A stretch of DNA of 64,000 bases from Bacteroidota bacterium. Its GTDB lineage: Bacteria > Bacteroidota > Rhodothermia > Rhodothermales > UBA10348. Each line of letters opens with the position of its first letter. The stretch's first letter is position 1. The DNA is taken from positions 40,767-104,766 of the forward strand of contig JAJCYQ010000023.1 of the NCBI GenBank assembly GCA_029262835.1, written 5' to 3'. Under the pieces are notes generated by a model. It had not been told where the DNA came from. It made no database searches and saw nothing but the letters and a program-made list of their open reading frames with translations. The translations under genes were made by a program, and so were the position numbers. Below are positions 25,918 to 34,449 of the stretch, piece after piece.

Positions 25918-26085
25918 TCAACCCGCCTTGGCACCATCATCGTCTTCGTCTTCGTCGACCAGCATGCGCATGCCGGGAGTGTCGACATCGTCGTACTGGC
26001 CCGAGCGGACGCTCCAGATGAATGCGGCTACGCCGACGCCCGCGAGGGCCAGTGCAAGTGGAACCAGGAAGTAGAGGACATTCAC
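25918..26085 (-). CDS. ccoS: cbb3-type cytochrome oxidase assembly protein CcoS (GTG start)
   Basis: (V)NVLYFLVPLALALAGVGVAAFIWSVRSGQYDDVDTPGMRMLVDEDE, typical CcoS; GTGA overlap with ccoI stop. Confidence 0.9.
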   Translation of the reverse strand: MNVLYFLVPLALALAGVGVAAFIWSVRSGQYDDVDTPGMRMLVDEDEDDDGAKAG

Positions 26086-28571
26086 CGTCGAAACCGTGTC
26101 TTGTGGCTCTTGAGCGATGACAAAACGACAACGAAGCTCGATATGGGCATGGCTACGGCCGCCAGGAGGGGTGTTACAAGACCCACCAGGGCGGCTCCTG
26201 CGCCCATCACATTGTATGCCAAGGAGAAGGTCAGGTTGCGGCGAACCACGCCGACGACGCGCGTTGCGTGTTCAATCAGATCCCGTGCGGCACCGAGGCC
26301 TGGTCGGGTCACGTACACGTGAGCGGCCATGCGGCTCGCAGCCGAGCCGTCCGCGACGGCGAGGCCGATATCGGCGGCCCGGAGAGCTGGCGTATCATTG
26401 ACGCCATCTCCGACAACAAGAACGTGATGGCCCTCATCCTGGAGCGCCTCAACCAGCTGCTTCTTGCGCTCCGGCGAGGCGGCGCCAATGGCGCGGCCAG
26501 CGGTCACACCAACACGACTGGCGACATGCGCTGTCGTCGCCTTGTCATCCCCAGAGCAGATCCAGACCTCGGTCCGGGCCGAAAGCCAGTCAATGGTTGC
26601 GCGGGCATCGGGCCGGACGGGATCGGTAATGGCTACGACAGCTGCCAACATACCATCAATTTCTACAGCAACGGGCGTTCGGCCACCCGCTGCCATTCGC
26701 GCCGCGGCTCCTTCGAGGCTCTTCGGCACCGTTGCGCTATCCAGAATCCACGCTGGCCGGCCGACGCGGACGCGTTGGCCATCGACGCGCGCTTCGATGC
26801 CCGTCGATGGAACGAGGTGGACGCCGGTAGCCGGTTCGAGCGGACGTCCATCGGCCCAGGCAGTGAAAGCGCGGGCTATGGGATGGGAGAGTCCGGTTTC
26901 GACTGAGGCGGCAAACAGCATGGCACCTATCGTTCCCTCGAAGGCATCGATCCGCATGGCGCCTTCGGTGATGGTACCCGTCTTGTCGAGTATGACGGCC
27001 GTAATGGACGTCGCGCGTTCCAGGATGCGTTCACCCTTTATGAAGAGTCCCCGCCGGGCGGCGCGCCCAAGACCCACGGCGAGCGCCAGGGGCGTCGCCA
27101 TGCCGAGTGCGCAGGGGCACGTGATGACCAGGAGAGCCACCACATGGCTGACCGCACGGGCAGGATCGATGACAGACCAGGCCACGGCCGATATGCTGGC
27201 CAGCGCGAGGACCGAGATGGAGAACCAGCCGCCCAGCGCATTGGCCGCGCCAAGAAGGCCCGGCCGGGATGCGGGTGATGCACCACCCGGCTCTGAAACC
27301 CACGAAACAAGGCTTCCAATGCGTGTCCGCGGCCCCGTCCGCGCCACCTGTATGGTGAGTGGAGATGTTTCATTGATGGTGCCAGCGAACACCGTGGTCC
27401 CCGGGCGCACAAAGACAGGGCGGCTCTCGCCCGTCAGGACGGCGTGCCCGACATGGCTTTCTCCGTCGGCAACGCTACCGTCGACCGGAATCAATTCTCC
27501 TGGCTCCACGCGTACGAGATGTCCGGCGACCAGGTCGTCGGCCTGGACGCGTTCCGTGCGGCCGTCGGCCATCTGGCGACGCGCCACGCTTGGAACGAGG
27601 GCGAGCAGGCGATCGGACGTATCGCCCGCCAGGCGCTGGGCGCGAAGTTGGAGCCAGCGCGCCGTGAGGAGCGCAGCTATCAGGACGGTGATGGAATCGA
27701 ACCAGATTTCGCCGCTCCCGGTGATCGTAGCCCACGCGCTGTAAACGAATCCAGTCAGGATGCCGGCCGAGATCGGCGTATCCATGTGGATGTGCCGGAG
27801 TGATCGGGCTCGCGCCGCAACACGAAGCGAAGAAACCGCCCGTCGGAAAAACACACCGCCCCCATAGACAACAGCCGGGACCGCGAGTAGAAGACTCAGC
27901 CACCGGGCGGCACTGCCGAGCCCTGTTGCGTCACTGTCGAGCCCGCCGTACAGCGCAAAAGCGAGCAGCATTACGTTTCCGGCGAGGGCCCAGGCGACGC
28001 CAACACGAACGAGCAGCCCCCTTTCCGCGCGCGAGGCTCCAGATTGAGATTCGCCGCGTCCCGGAACGCGCGGCTCGACCGGGTATCCGAATCGGGCCAG
28101 CCACCTGGCAATGTCTGACAGCGCGACCTCACGCGGATTCCACGTGAGCGTGAGTCGTCCCCTGGCCAGTTGAAGCCGGGCTGAATACGCTCCGTCCACC
28201 TCTTGCGGCAGGCGTTCGACGAGCCACACGCAGGCGGCGCAGTGCACGCCGTCCAGATAGAGGTCGGTTCGGTAGCGCCCGCCGTCCAGTGGCACGGCGT
28301 GCTGCTCCATGAAATCGGGCGAATCGAGTTCCTGCAGTAGCGATTCGGGCGCAGAGGAGGAGGGTGGCCGGAGCCGGCCCACAGCTGGCGACGATTCCTT
28401 GAGACGGTAATACGTGGCATCGAGTCCCGAGTCCTGGAGAATGCCGTAGACCGTGCGGCAGGAAGAGCAGCAGAACGCCGGTTCCCGGGCGCGGAGAGCC
28501 GGCGGAACGGGAAGCCCGCAGTGGGCGCATTGTGCGCCGCGAGGGGCAGTCACGTCCTTCCGAGCGCTCAC
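26082..28571 (-). CDS. ccoI: Heavy-metal (Cu) translocating P-type ATPase CcoI/FixI
   Basis: N-terminal Cys cluster CAHCGLPV...CCSSC, HMA CAAC, CPCALGMATPLAL, DKTGTITEG, GDGVNDTPAL; GTG start (VSARKDV) overlapping ccoH stop. Confidence 0.93.
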   Translation of the reverse strand: MSARKDVTAPRGAQCAHCGLPVPPALRAREPAFCCSSCRTVYGILQDSGLDATYYRLKESSPAVGRLRPPSSSAPESLLQELDSPDFMEQHAVPLDGGRYRTDLYLDGVHCAACVWLVERLPQEVDGAYSARLQLARGRLTLTWNPREVALSDIARWLARFGYPVEPRVPGRGESQSGASRAERGLLVRVGVAWALAGNVMLLAFALYGGLDSDATGLGSAARWLSLLLAVPAVVYGGGVFFRRAVSSLRVAARARSLRHIHMDTPISAGILTGFVYSAWATITGSGEIWFDSITVLIAALLTARWLQLRAQRLAGDTSDRLLALVPSVARRQMADGRTERVQADDLVAGHLVRVEPGELIPVDGSVADGESHVGHAVLTGESRPVFVRPGTTVFAGTINETSPLTIQVARTGPRTRIGSLVSWVSEPGGASPASRPGLLGAANALGGWFSISVLALASISAVAWSVIDPARAVSHVVALLVITCPCALGMATPLALAVGLGRAARRGLFIKGERILERATSITAVILDKTGTITEGAMRIDAFEGTIGAMLFAASVETGLSHPIARAFTAWADGRPLEPATGVHLVPSTGIEARVDGQRVRVGRPAWILDSATVPKSLEGAAARMAAGGRTPVAVEIDGMLAAVVAITDPVRPDARATIDWLSARTEVWICSGDDKATTAHVASRVGVTAGRAIGAASPERKKQLVEALQDEGHHVLVVGDGVNDTPALRAADIGLAVADGSAASRMAAHVYVTRPGLGAARDLIEHATRVVGVVRRNLTFSLAYNVMGAGAALVGLVTPLLAAVAMPISSFVVVLSSLKSHKTRFRR

Positions 28572-29044
28572 GGCAGACTCCACTCCCGCCGGAGTTCGTG
28601 TATAAACCGGTCTGAGCCGCGCATGGCATCTATACGAACGTCCCACAGCCCTGCACCATGGGCAGATACGGTCAGATCCGTGGCTGTGCCCGATGCATCT
28701 ACCCGAAAAGGAATGACCTCGGAGAAGGTCGCTTCGTGCGGCCGCGTCAGCGTCAGTGTTCCCTGCGCATCCGGTACGGGCTCTCCATTCCGATCCAGAA
28801 GTTCGAGCTGAAGTGTGCTGTTTTCCGCATGTTCGACGTCCACCGTCCACCCCAGTGCGCGGCTGGCTGCGCGCGTCGCAGCGATCTCATCCCAGGCAAC
28901 GGCTTTGTCGTAATAGCCAGGAATGACCTCGGGGCCTCCGTCCACACGGGACGCGAAAAGAAGGCCGAACGTCATCGTCATGCCGAAAAGAATAAGGCCG
29001 ATGATAGCGGCTGGCCAGGTCCAATCTGTTGTCGGGGTTTTCAT
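28568..29044 (-). CDS. ccoH: FixH/CcoH family protein
   Basis: Single N-terminal TM, PEVIPGYYDKAVAWDE motif, between ccoG and ccoI. Confidence 0.88.
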   Translation of the reverse strand: MKTPTTDWTWPAAIIGLILFGMTMTFGLLFASRVDGGPEVIPGYYDKAVAWDEIAATRAASRALGWTVDVEHAENSTLQLELLDRNGEPVPDAQGTLTLTRPHEATFSEVIPFRVDASGTATDLTVSAHGAGLWDVRIDAMRGSDRFIHELRREWSLP

Positions 29045-30474
29045 GGGCGTTCGCTCGGACCCAGCAATGTGAAGGAGCGCTCAAGCACCTGACCGTCCGA
29101 AAACTCGAGCAGGAAGTTTACAGGCATGGTGTCACCCGCAAAGGCGGTACTGGGGGCCATGACCCAGATTTCAACGCGGCGCATTTCACCGCCATCGAGG
29201 GTGAGGGGGAGGGCCTCTACCGGCCGCAGGTCAAGTGAAGAACCGTCGGCAACACGCACCGTGAAGGACGCTGGAACCGGCGTCTGGTTGCGCACGCGGA
29301 AACGCAGGCGGTTGGCAATGCGCCCGTCACCGAGCTCGGTGTAGGGCTCGCCGACGGCGCGCCCGATGTTGATGTCATAGTCAGCGCGCTGCGTCAGTAC
29401 GATCGAGAAGGCAGACAGTACGAAAACAAGGGCGATCGCGTAGATGACCGTTCGCGGGCGGAACAGTCGGGTTTTCTTGCCCTCCAGCTCCCGTTCGGAT
29501 GTGTACCGGATAAGCCCACGGGGTTTTCCAATGTTGTCCATGATGTGGTCGCACGCGTCAATGCATTGCGTACAGGCCACACATTCCATCTGCAGGCCAT
29601 CCCGGATGTCAATCCCTGTTGGGCATGTGCGTACGCATGCGAAGCAGTCAATGCAGTCGCCCTTCTGCTCGGCGCGGCCCTCTTCCTCTTCCTGCAGCTG
29701 TTTTTTGGACCTACGGGCGCGGGGCTCGCCACGGCCAGGGTCGTAGGAAACGATGGCAGAGTCTTCATCGAGCATGATGGACTGCATGCGGGCATAGGGA
29801 CATGTGATGGTGCACATCTGCTCCCTGAATATGCCGAAATCAAACAGGATGAGGCCAGTAGTAATGGCCATCACCAGAAAGAAGCCCCAGTGTTCGGTGG
29901 GCGGGGCCTGCATCCAGGTGAGGAGCGCTTCCCAGCCAACAAAGTAGGCGACAAAGGTGTTGGCAAGCAGAAGGGAGATCACAAGGTAGATACTCCACTT
30001 GGCGGCTTTTCTCCATGCCTTGTCGACGGACATGGGGCCCTCGTCGCGGCGCTTGCGAACGTGTTCCTTTCCCTCGATGAGGCGCTCAATCGGACGAAAT
30101 ACGAATTCCAGGTAGACCGTCTGGGGACACGCCCATCCGCACCATACGCGTCCCAGAAGCGCCGTGACCAGGATGACGGCCACCATGATGGCGATCAGCA
30201 TGAGCATCAGAAGGAGCGTGTCTGTGGGATAGAACACGGCCCCAAAAAGGGCGAATTCCCTGTGTACCACATCCAACAGCATGGCCGGCTTGCCACCGAT
30301 GTGTACAATGGGCAATGCGAGGTAGGCGAGAACGAGCAGAAAGCCGGTCCAGCGCCGCCGAGTCAGGAAGCGCCCCTTGCTTTCTACAGGGTACAGCCAC
30401 TTGCGCTTGCCATCCTTGCCAAGAGTGGACAGTACCTCATCAGGGGACTGGAGGATAGCGGGGCCATCGGCCAT
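29041..30474 (-). CDS. ccoG: Cytochrome c oxidase accessory protein CcoG (RdxA/FixG)
   Basis: TM segments, ferredoxin motifs CTITCPYARMQS, CIDCFACVRTCPTGIDIRDGLQMECVACTQCIDACD. Confidence 0.93.
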   Translation of the reverse strand: MADGPAILQSPDEVLSTLGKDGKRKWLYPVESKGRFLTRRRWTGFLLVLAYLALPIVHIGGKPAMLLDVVHREFALFGAVFYPTDTLLLMLMLIAIMVAVILVTALLGRVWCGWACPQTVYLEFVFRPIERLIEGKEHVRKRRDEGPMSVDKAWRKAAKWSIYLVISLLLANTFVAYFVGWEALLTWMQAPPTEHWGFFLVMAITTGLILFDFGIFREQMCTITCPYARMQSIMLDEDSAIVSYDPGRGEPRARRSKKQLQEEEEGRAEQKGDCIDCFACVRTCPTGIDIRDGLQMECVACTQCIDACDHIMDNIGKPRGLIRYTSERELEGKKTRLFRPRTVIYAIALVFVLSAFSIVLTQRADYDINIGRAVGEPYTELGDGRIANRLRFRVRNQTPVPASFTVRVADGSSLDLRPVEALPLTLDGGEMRRVEIWVMAPSTAFAGDTMPVNFLLEFSDGQVLERSFTLLGPSERP

Positions 30475-30480
30475 GGAGTA

Positions 30481-31128
30481 TTACGTTTCCTCTTCGTTGT
30501 CTTCCGCAGGGCTTTCCTCATACAACGTGCCCTGTGGCTCTTTGGCTCCCTCCGGGTTGGTGCCTTCAATGGAGCGGATGTAAGCCACGAGTTCGGAGCG
30601 CTCCTGTGGCGCAAGAATGCTTCCCCAGGGCGTCATGCCCTTGTCGAGGACGCCCTCCGTGATCACGGTATAAATGTCCACGTTCTCATTACCGTGAATC
30701 CAGTAGGCATCTGTCAGGTTGGGACCGATCAGGCCTTCACCACTGGCTCCGTGGCAGACCGCACAGTTGGCGCTGTAGAGCTGCTGTCCCGCCGCAATGG
30801 CCTCCTCCACACCCACGAATGCAGCAATAGCGTCATTGGAGACTTCAAACGTGGGATTCTGCGCTTCCCATGCCGTTCGGATTTCAGCGAGTTCGGCCTG
30901 GTCCGATGCCAACTTTTCCTCGTACGTGGGAATGATGTCAAAGACGTGCATGCCCAGAACGTAGACGGGGGCAAACGCCACGCATATCCAGAAGAGCCAT
31001 ACCCACCAACCGGGCATGGGGTTGTCATATTCTTCGATGCCGTCATAACTGTGCCCCTCGATGAGGGGCTCGTCCTGCGAGGCAGACTGATTCGGGTTGG
31101 CGTCGTCGCGATGCGTATCGTTACTCAT
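30481..31128 (-). CDS. ccoP: cbb3 oxidase subunit III CcoP, with one CxxCH motif
   Basis: YDGIEEYDNPMPGWWVWLFW N-terminus, single CAVCH heme-binding motif. Confidence 0.9.
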   Translation of the reverse strand: MSNDTHRDDANPNQSASQDEPLIEGHSYDGIEEYDNPMPGWWVWLFWICVAFAPVYVLGMHVFDIIPTYEEKLASDQAELAEIRTAWEAQNPTFEVSNDAIAAFVGVEEAIAAGQQLYSANCAVCHGASGEGLIGPNLTDAYWIHGNENVDIYTVITEGVLDKGMTPWGSILAPQERSELVAYIRSIEGTNPEGAKEPQGTLYEESPAEDNEEET

Positions 31129-31346: not shown

Positions 31347-32027
31347 TCAGTTGATATCAGTGCCGAGACGCTGCAGGTAGGCGACAAGCGCTACAATTTC
31401 TTTGTCTTCCAGGCCGTCGGGTCCCCCGGTTTCGGCAACGCCCTCGGCAATGCGCGTGGCCTGTGTCCGGGCATCACGGACTGCAGATTCGATCTCGGCG
31501 TCGGAATATGGCACACCCACTTTGCGGAGTGCGCTCATGCGGGACGGAATGTCCTCGAAGTCAAGGTCATTGGCGAGCAGCCAGGCGTACGGTGGCATGA
31601 GTGACTGTGGACTTGTTGAACGGGGATCTTCCATATGCCGAACGTGCCACAGGTCCGGGTACTTGCCTCCTACACGGTGCAGGTCCGGGCCCGTTCGTTT
31701 TGACCCCCAGAGGAAGGGATGGTCATAAACGTGTTCCCCTGGTTTGGAATATTCTCCGTAGCGCTCAATTTCATCGCGGAACGGCCGGACCTGCTGGGAA
31801 TGACACCCGACACACCCCTCACGGATGTAGACGTCCCGGCCCGCCAGTTCAAGCGGCGTGTAAGGAAGGACGGTCTCAATACGGGGAACATTGCTCTCCA
31901 CCAATACCAGCGGCAGGAATTCGACCGTGCCACCTATGAGGATGGCGATGGTCGTAAGCAGGGTGAACATGAACGGCCAGCCTTCCAGTTTGCGGTGCTT
32001 GCCGTCTGTTTCAATGAATGGACTCAT
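31347..32027 (-). CDS. ccoO: cbb3 oxidase subunit II CcoO
   Basis: N-terminal TM; YIREGCVGCHSQQVRPFRDEIERYGEYSKPGE. Confidence 0.95.
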   Translation of the reverse strand: MSPFIETDGKHRKLEGWPFMFTLLTTIAILIGGTVEFLPLVLVESNVPRIETVLPYTPLELAGRDVYIREGCVGCHSQQVRPFRDEIERYGEYSKPGEHVYDHPFLWGSKRTGPDLHRVGGKYPDLWHVRHMEDPRSTSPQSLMPPYAWLLANDLDFEDIPSRMSALRKVGVPYSDAEIESAVRDARTQATRIAEGVAETGGPDGLEDKEIVALVAYLQRLGTDIN

Positions 32028-32041
32028 GACGGTTCAGGGAT

Positions 32042-33553
32042 TCAGGATACAGTGATGGACGAATCGTCGAGCTTCGATGGGGCGGTCGCAATGGTCTTGA
32101 ACAGGTTGACCAGCATAAGGATGACCCCTGCCAGGTACATCAGGCCACCAATGAGGCGCACCCAGTACATGGGTACGATCTGGATGACGGTCTCCATGAA
32201 ATCTGGATAGACGAGGCGACCTGCTTCGTCGAATGCGCGCCACATGAGGCCCTGCGTGACGCCCGCCGAATACATGGCCATGACGTACAGCAGCATACCA
32301 ATTGTGCCAATCCAGAAGTGGGCATTGGCCAGGCGCGGGCTCCAGAGTTTGGTTTTCCAGAGTCGAGGGAGCAGCCAGTAAATCATTCCGAACGTCATGA
32401 ACCCATTCCAGCCAAGCGCACCGGCATGCACGTGGCCAATCGTCCAGTCTGTGTAATGACTCAGGGCGTTCACTGTCTTGACGGACAACATGGGGCCCTC
32501 GAACGTGGACATGCCATAGAATGTGATGCCTATCACGTACATGCGCAGGACAACGCTGTCCCGGAGCTTGTGCCAGGCCCCACGAAGCGTGAACAGGCCA
32601 TTGATCATGCCGCCCCAACTCGGCATCCAGAGCATGACTGAGAATACCATGCCCAGCGTCGCCGCCCATTCGGGAATGGATGTGTAGTTCAGGTGGTGGG
32701 GGCCCGCCCATATATAGATGAAAACGAGGCTCCAGAAGTGGACAATCGACAGCCGGTAGGAGAATACCGGTCGTTCGGCCGCCTTGGGCAGGAAGTAGTA
32801 CATGAGGCCCAGGAACGGCGTAGTCAGGAAGAAGGCCACGGCGTTGTGCCCGTACCACCATTGGATAAAGGCATCCTGGACGCCGGCGTAGATCGGATAA
32901 CTCTTGAAAAGACCGGCCGGTATGGCTAGGCTGTTCCCGATATGGAGAACAGCCACGGTCACGATCGTGGCGATGTAGAACCAGATGGCTACGTACAGAT
33001 GCTTTTCCCGCCTGACCTTCAGCGTCCAGAAGAAGTTGACGGCGAATACAACCCAGATGACCGTGATCAGAATGTCGATGGGCCACTCGAGTTCGGCGTA
33101 CTCCTTGCTGGTTGTGATTCCAAGTGGGAGTGTGATGGCGGCCGATACGATGATGGTTTGCCATCCCCAGAAGTGGATGCGGCTCATAAGGTCGCTGAAC
33201 ATCCGCGCCTTCACGAGTCGCTGCGTGGAGTAATAGACAGCCGCAAAAATGGCGTTGCCGGCGAAGGCAAAAATCACGGCGTTGGTATGCAGCGGCCGGA
33301 GGCGGCCGAACGTCAGGTATGGACCCAGGTTGGCCTGCCAGAATGGCATCTGGAGCGCGATGAGCGCACCAACCAGCATTCCTACGAAGCCCCAGATGGC
33401 GGTTGCCAGGACGAAAAGACGGACAATCCCGTCGTCGAAATGTACAAGTTCGCCCCGGCTTTCCCGGTACGCGTGAGGTTGCGTCGTTTCCATGAATGGT
33501 GTGGTGGGTTCAGTAGCAGCCCCATGATATGTGTTTTTTGCGTTGTTTGGCAA
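32042..33553 (-). CDS. ccoN: cbb3 oxidase subunit I CcoN (start may be Met at 33493)
   Basis: Heme-copper oxidase core: LHTNAVIFAFAGNAIFA, WWYGHNAVAFFLT, HYTDWTIGHVHAGALGWNG. Confidence 0.96.
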   Translation of the reverse strand: MPNNAKNTYHGAATEPTTPFMETTQPHAYRESRGELVHFDDGIVRLFVLATAIWGFVGMLVGALIALQMPFWQANLGPYLTFGRLRPLHTNAVIFAFAGNAIFAAVYYSTQRLVKARMFSDLMSRIHFWGWQTIIVSAAITLPLGITTSKEYAELEWPIDILITVIWVVFAVNFFWTLKVRREKHLYVAIWFYIATIVTVAVLHIGNSLAIPAGLFKSYPIYAGVQDAFIQWWYGHNAVAFFLTTPFLGLMYYFLPKAAERPVFSYRLSIVHFWSLVFIYIWAGPHHLNYTSIPEWAATLGMVFSVMLWMPSWGGMINGLFTLRGAWHKLRDSVVLRMYVIGITFYGMSTFEGPMLSVKTVNALSHYTDWTIGHVHAGALGWNGFMTFGMIYWLLPRLWKTKLWSPRLANAHFWIGTIGMLLYVMAMYSAGVTQGLMWRAFDEAGRLVYPDFMETVIQIVPMYWVRLIGGLMYLAGVILMLVNLFKTIATAPSKLDDSSITVS

Positions 33554-33600
33554 GCCCCGTTGCCGGTGCGTTCGGCGGCGGGGGGATCCTGCACTGCGCT

Positions 33601-33659
33601 GTAGGTGAATATCCTACGTGCGGTCCGGCAGCGGGCAGTCATGTGGGCGAATCCCCCAC
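33601..33659. promoter_or_regulatory. Two related 17-bp interrupted dyads (GTAGG-N7-CCTAC and GTGGG-N7-CCCAC) between ccoN and response regulator gene
   Basis: GTAGGTGAATATCCTAC at 33601-33617 and GTGGGCGAATCCCCCAC at 33643-33659; conserved GAAT centre and trailing GT; 42-bp repeat spacing. Confidence 0.65.
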
Positions 33660-33774
33660 GTTGGATGAAGAGACGCCACTATTCACGTGTGGTACACGTC
33701 CCGTCATGACTCGCGTCAAGATCTTCTTATCGTCAAATGAGGATCACTTCGTTCACCTGTCATCGTGCAGCATC

Positions 33775-34449
33775 ATGCAGGATCAAGACATCATCCATGT
33801 CGGCATTGTCGACGATCACCCACTCATGAGGAAAGGTCTCCGGCTGGTACTTGAGGCCGAGAAGGACATCAGGGTCTGCTGTGAAAAGGAAACCGCTGAA
33901 AGCATGCTGGAAACCCTGGAACAGGCTCGTCCGGCCGTGGTCATTGTGGACGTATCGCTTCCGGGAATGAGTGGGATCGAACTCATTCCGCGCATTCATG
34001 CCATCAATTCGGGCATCAAGGTCCTCGTCGTATCGCGGCACGATGAGTCGCTATATGCAGAACGGGCCATCCGCGCCGGAGCGCGCGGATACCTAATGAA
34101 GATGGCCGCCGGCGAAGAGGTGGTAACGGCCGTCCGGCGCGTCCTGGGAGGCGGTATCTACGTATCCAACGAAATCAACGAGCGCCTCCTGCAGGGCATG
34201 GCCCTTGGGAAGAGCGCGTTCAACCGGTCACCACTGGATGTCCTTTCGAACAGGGAACTGGAGGTGTTCGAGATGACGGGTCACGGCCAGGGAACGAGGG
34301 AAATATCCGAGCGCCTCGGGCTTTCGATAAAGACCATCGAAAGCTACCGGGCCAGGATCAAGACGAAGCTCAACCTGGCTGGCGCGGCCGAGCTCATGCA
34401 ACACGCCGTGCAGTGGGTCGAAAGCGAAGTCGTTCGGCGGTCAGCCTGA
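33775..34449 (+). CDS. NarL/FixJ-family LuxR-type DNA-binding response regulator
   Basis: Receiver: VGIVDDHPLMRKGLRL, VVIVDVSLPGMSG, GARGYLMKMA; LuxR HTH: LSNRELEVFEMTGHGQGTREISERLGLSIKTIESYRARIKTKL. Confidence 0.93.
   Translation: MQDQDIIHVGIVDDHPLMRKGLRLVLEAEKDIRVCCEKETAESMLETLEQARPAVVIVDVSLPGMSGIELIPRIHAINSGIKVLVVSRHDESLYAERAIRAGARGYLMKMAAGEEVVTAVRRVLGGGIYVSNEINERLLQGMALGKSAFNRSPLDVLSNRELEVFEMTGHGQGTREISERLGLSIKTIESYRARIKTKLNLAGAAELMQHAVQWVESEVVRRSA

Follow-up and report, generated by a model that had tools for sequence, protein, structure and literature searches.

The gap between the divergent genes for subunit I of a cbb3 oxidase (ccoN) and for a response regulator raises a key question: do the two short inverted repeats located in it serve as binding sites for a regulator of the oxidase, and, if so, for which one? 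The earlier note on this DNA reported two 17-bp dyads at 33601 and 33643 of the window (the whole 64-kb stretch that was analysed), and both are present at these positions: a proximal dyad, GTAGGTGAATATCCTAC (33601..33617), and a distal dyad, GTGGGCGAATCCCCCAC (33643..33659), neither of which is assigned to a strand. They lie inside the 281-bp gap between ccoN and the regulator gene and are the sole matches to GTRGG-N7-CCYAC in the window. Shuffled windows contained 0.29 such matches on average, and at least two matches occurred in 5 of 100 shuffles, a frequency that leaves some room for the view that these inverted repeats arose by chance or are a coding feature; by itself, the count of the simple pattern is modest support for them.

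On one side of the gap lie the genes of the cco operon, all on the minus strand: ccoN (32042..33493; TIGR00780 above cut-off), ccoO (31347..32027; FixO / TIGR00781), a ccoP-like gene with one cytochrome c domain (30481..31128; FixP_N and Cytochrome_CBB3, under the TIGR00782 cut-off), ccoG (29041..30474; Fer4_18 and FixG_C), ccoH (28568..29044; FixH) and a gene for a ccoI-type heavy-metal P-type ATPase (26082..28850; TIGR01525 above cut-off), the start of which is uncertain, as its open frame overlaps ccoH. Between the dyads and ccoN, a promoter is predicted on the minus strand, with a -35 hexamer TTGCCA (33548..33553) and a -10 hexamer TATCAT (33524..33529) separated by an 18-bp spacer. It is conserved in two sister species (G001 and G003; the window's own genome is G000): the -35 hexamer is the same in sequence, position and spacing in both, and the -10 hexamer reads TATAAT in G001 and TATCAT in G003. 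If ccoN transcription starts where this promoter predicts, the dyad centres are about 92 and 134 bp upstream of the start.

The sister species also retain the dyads themselves. Counterparts of the proximal dyad (GTAGGGGTACCCACTAC in G001 and GTAGGGATTTTCACTAC in G003) occur at an equal distance from ccoN, and those of the distal dyad are found at -164 in both genomes. An open frame spans the dyads and runs into the regulator gene in G000, as a coding feature would require; however, this extension of the frame to 33529, upstream of the regulator, is interrupted by stops in G001 and G003. The dyad region is therefore non-coding, and an extension of the regulator coding sequence over the dyads is ruled out. 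An automatic gene caller could nevertheless choose the start at 33529 (306 aa), which would hide the operators within a false coding region, 33529-34449. A remnant of a tRNA T-arm was considered as well, given two other T-arm-like matches in the genome, and rejected, since no tRNA was found. These two matches to the loose GTRGG-N7-CCYAC pattern, GTAGGTTCGAATCCTAC at G000:C1:1735 and C89:7422 (L001, L010), show that tRNA genes need to be masked when genomes are scanned with it.

How far does this conservation extend beyond the genus? A close ccoN was present in 29 of the 60 genomes searched, the window's own included, and nearly all of those with enough upstream sequence carried a dyad resembling GTAGGG-N5-CCCTAC approximately 100-320 bp 5' of the gene. 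An unseeded search for palindromic motifs, with one 350-bp sequence per genus from 19 genera, yielded a 17-bp palindrome, GTRGGGG-N3-CCCCYAC, before ccoN of Rhodothermales, the order of the window's own genome, with a log-likelihood of 128 compared with 18-28 in six shuffled sets. The same motif was recovered when the window's genus was excluded from training, and in this form it scored no position of the window as high as the two dyads: the distal site came first with 18.3 bits and the proximal one second with 11.8 bits, followed by the next position at 9.7 bits. By score, the proximal site is weak. Where the region upstream of a Rhodothermales ccoN was of sufficient length for the test, a motif site was present in 27/27 cases, most of which were training sequences; among ccoN upstream regions from other groups, 1/51 had one. 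The single match outside, GTAGGCGAAACCACCAC in a Gemmatimonadaceae MAG (L123; 16.6 bits), is one strong site at most 450 bp upstream of ccoN and represents either chance or a transferred system. Phylogenetic footprinting upstream of ccoN, a check proposed in the earlier note, thus revealed a dyad motif conserved throughout Rhodothermales, and given the ranking and the orthologous sites in the sister species, an origin of the dyads by chance or as a coding feature is barely credible. Boxes of the FNR type (at least 9/10 matching) were absent from every Rhodothermales ccoN upstream region searched, and FNR control of ccoN was rejected for this reason.

Another important question is whether the symmetry acts in DNA or in RNA. 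The perfect 5-bp arms could make a short stem, and the dyads might accordingly be read as RNA hairpins in a transcribed leader, as an attenuator or a terminator. The compensatory covariation of the arms that had been claimed did not survive a larger sample: 30 of 55 sites were symmetric at position 3, where independent variation of the half-sites would give 29.1, and mixed A/G sites were common. Each half-site, as far as the aligned sites indicate, tolerates a purine at position 3 independently of the other, which argues for selection on half-sites and fits a dimeric protein rather than a base-paired stem. In addition, no terminator or Rfam match was found at the dyads, and they are located upstream of the conserved promoter on the ccoN side; the hairpin reading is consequently highly improbable. 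The spacing between the sites needs a similar correction. The distance described as exactly 42 bp holds in G000, but both sister species (G001 and G003) have 40 bp; in other genomes the second site, where present, lies at about 23-74 bp and in some is missing. As this spacing is not conserved among relatives, the argument that four helical turns place both sites on the same face of the DNA is weak. The GAAT centre, reported as kept, corresponds to a weak preference in the motif. Comparative evidence supports a NarL-family operator upstream of ccoN, but not the covariation and the exact four-turn spacing that had been attached to it.

Which protein, then, would recognize these operators? The neighboring gene (33775..34449, plus strand) encodes, as had been stated, a LuxR-type regulator, with a receiver domain (PF00072, 5.9e-26) and a GerE helix-turn-helix (PF00196, 3.1e-15); the nearest solved structures are EvgA, NarL, DesR, VraR and DevR. 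Pfam, alignment and tree together identify it as a NarL-family response regulator and an orphan paralogue of a kinase-linked regulator. The latter is encoded on another contig of the same genome (G000:C60:101640-102284), is 65% identical to the window regulator and has a near-identical recognition helix. It directly follows the gene of a kinase with PAS and HisKA_3 domains, which in G000 is unlinked to the window regulator. The PAS domain of this kinase matches FixL structures with an E value of 1.4e-29, the heme-ligand His region H[DE].Y[ILV] is kept in 14/14 linked kinases, and a domain search returned no GAF match in the linked kinase. On this basis the linked kinase is assigned as a FixL-like heme-PAS sensor, for which heme binding and O2-inhibited activity are predicted.

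The presence of two similar regulators allows for the dyads to be occupied in vivo solely by the kinase-linked paralogue, the window regulator having diverged to other targets or become vestigial. The paralogue stands beside the FixL-like kinase and has good sites of its own, the ccoN sites persist in genomes without the orphan clade, and this clade has longer branches, indicating faster evolution. The tree places the window regulator among cco-adjacent orphans, together with those of G001, G002, G003, G011 and G020 (97/91 support) and separate from the kinase-linked copies. However, the orphan has been kept beside ccoN in four species of the window's genus and in G011 and G020, and its functional residues are intact: both the recognition helix LS[IV]KT[IV]ESYR[AS]RIK and the phospho-acceptor Asp, before the SLPG motif, are kept in 23/23 aligned regulators. 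We regard exclusive occupation by the paralogue as possible but rather unlikely.

The link between motif and regulator rests on position and co-occurrence, so the palindrome could in principle belong to an unrelated regulator found in the same genomes as the two-component system. The kinase was found in 29/29 ccoN-positive genomes, and ccoN was absent from 13/13 kinase-negative genomes (Fisher p 5e-5). Kinase, regulator and cco operon occur in one stretch in eight genomes (G027, G031, G034, G035, G037, G045, G046 and G056), and this linkage is seen in several families. In 196 kb from 20 cluster loci, chosen partly for holding the kinase, the regulator or exact sites, there were 34 sites at the 1e-5 level, whereas about 2 were expected and a reversed control gave 1; kinase loci of the same class outside the order contained 11 sites in 43.6 kb, with 0.44 expected. 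Genome-wide counts of exact sites were not clearly above those of the reversed pattern, which has a different background, and the enrichment is therefore local. This clustering at the kinase-regulator locus throughout the order and beyond it, the parallel retention of recognition helix and motif and the lack of an FNR-type box make an unrelated regulator improbable.

The sites in the cluster loci precede ccoN, ccoP and ccoG as well as nitroreductase, universal-stress-protein and tonB genes. The site-linked nitroreductases belong to the Acg (Rv3131) family, NF047509; with a score of 196.9, the copy in G000 falls just short of the cut-off of 199. Sites in this genome also precede the tonB and nitroreductase genes on contig C60, and another lies on contig C43, where a sulfide:quinone reductase gene and its neighbor diverge. 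This last site, an intergenic match GTAGGTAAAACCCCTAT at L272:1342, adjoins the reductase gene L272:1-1239 (minus strand), the product of which is a type III sulfide:quinone reductase (NCBIfam 'selenoprotein subtype', 645.6 vs cut-off 525) and a possible further member of the regulon. Most other two-mismatch sites in G000 fall inside called open frames and were taken as chance. Many relatives possess the FixL-like kinase and the regulator without ccoN (G004, G008, G028, G036, G038 and others; L081, L082), and in both G028 and G042 an Rrf2-family regulator gene has an exact site nearby, conserved between the two. The regulon is for these reasons probably wider than the oxidase.

Taken as a whole, we consider it very likely that dimers of a NarL-family regulator, part of an O2-responsive two-component system of Rhodothermales, use the dyads as operators. 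When O2 falls, the heme-PAS kinase would lose its O2 and phosphorylate the kinase-linked regulator copy, the window copy, or both. Regulator dimers would then bind the paired dyads upstream of the predicted ccoN start and directly raise transcription of the ccoNOPGHI operon; the same regulator would also raise that of the Acg-type nitroreductase, universal stress and tonB genes. In this scheme, the window regulator would be a duplicated orphan in which the phospho-acceptor Asp and the recognition helix persist, and it may control its own gene as well, from the gap shared with ccoN. We infer each step of the scheme, from O2 sensing and phosphotransfer to binding, activation and autoregulation, from sequence comparison.

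How does this system relate to known ones? A FixL-type heme-PAS kinase also stands upstream of cbb3 oxidase control in the FixLJ and hFixL-FxkR systems of rhizobia, where FixK/FnrN exert it by way of the TTGAT-N4-ATCAA anaerobox (PMC7888657). In contrast, no anaerobox occurs in the Rhodothermales ccoN upstream regions searched, and we propose direct action through the site of the regulator itself; moreover, compared with FixLJ, the kinase is of the HisKA_3 type, and EvgA/NarL/DesR/DevR are nearer to the regulator than FixJ is. By the anaerobox test, the Rhodothermales system is not a FixLJ-FixK cascade. In DosRST, a HisKA_3-type heme kinase is paired with a NarL-family regulator, and the DosR palindrome differs from GTRGGGG-N3-CCCCYAC. 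The mycobacterial DosRST (DevR) system resembles the present one in these two components and in the predicted Acg-family and universal-stress-protein targets, acg being under DosR control in M. tuberculosis (PMC3110807). The sensors differ, with a heme PAS in Rhodothermales and a heme GAF in DosS/DosT, and the cbb3 oxidase is a core predicted target in Rhodothermales. The analogy with staphylococcal NreC made in the earlier note is loose: NreC is a NarL-family regulator that acts at GC-rich palindromes under anoxia (PMC8139620), a likeness shared by the predicted Rhodothermales binding, but the kinase linked to the Rhodothermales regulator has a heme PAS of the FixL type, whereas NreB senses O2 by a 4Fe-4S PAS and nitrate respiration is controlled (PMC8139620). 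The NreC site as quoted in that note has a 4-bp spacer, compared with 5 bp between GTAGGG and CCCTAC in Rhodothermales. By the type of the linked sensor, the system is neither NreBC nor DosRST. In NmpRSTU of Myxococcus xanthus, oxygen-linked signalling likewise controls universal stress genes along with a cbb3 oxidase (PMC11841059), but with a globin sensor and an NtrC-like regulator, an unrelated DNA-binding protein. Overall, a FixL-like sensor is combined with a regulator like NarL/DevR and a predicted target set like that of DosR plus cbb3.

The Rhodothermales system combines known kinds of parts and seems to be undescribed: our search of the open-access literature, which is not proof of absence, found no description of it. 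We think it likely that Rhodothermia possess a previously undescribed hypoxia regulon in which a FixL-like heme-PAS HisKA_3 kinase and a NarL-family regulator directly switch the cbb3 oxidase, along with a dormancy-type gene set like that of DosR (Acg oxidoreductases, universal stress proteins and TonB), via GTRGGGG-N3-CCCCYAC, without FNR/FixK, and in which the regulator has been duplicated in part of the family, with the orphan copy at the oxidase. If this is true, the motif allows target prediction and direct tests, FixL-type sensing would be linked to an output like that of DosR in bacteria other than proteobacteria and actinobacteria, and Rhodothermales, in which transcriptional control is little known, would gain a defined oxygen regulon with an operator, a sensor and targets.
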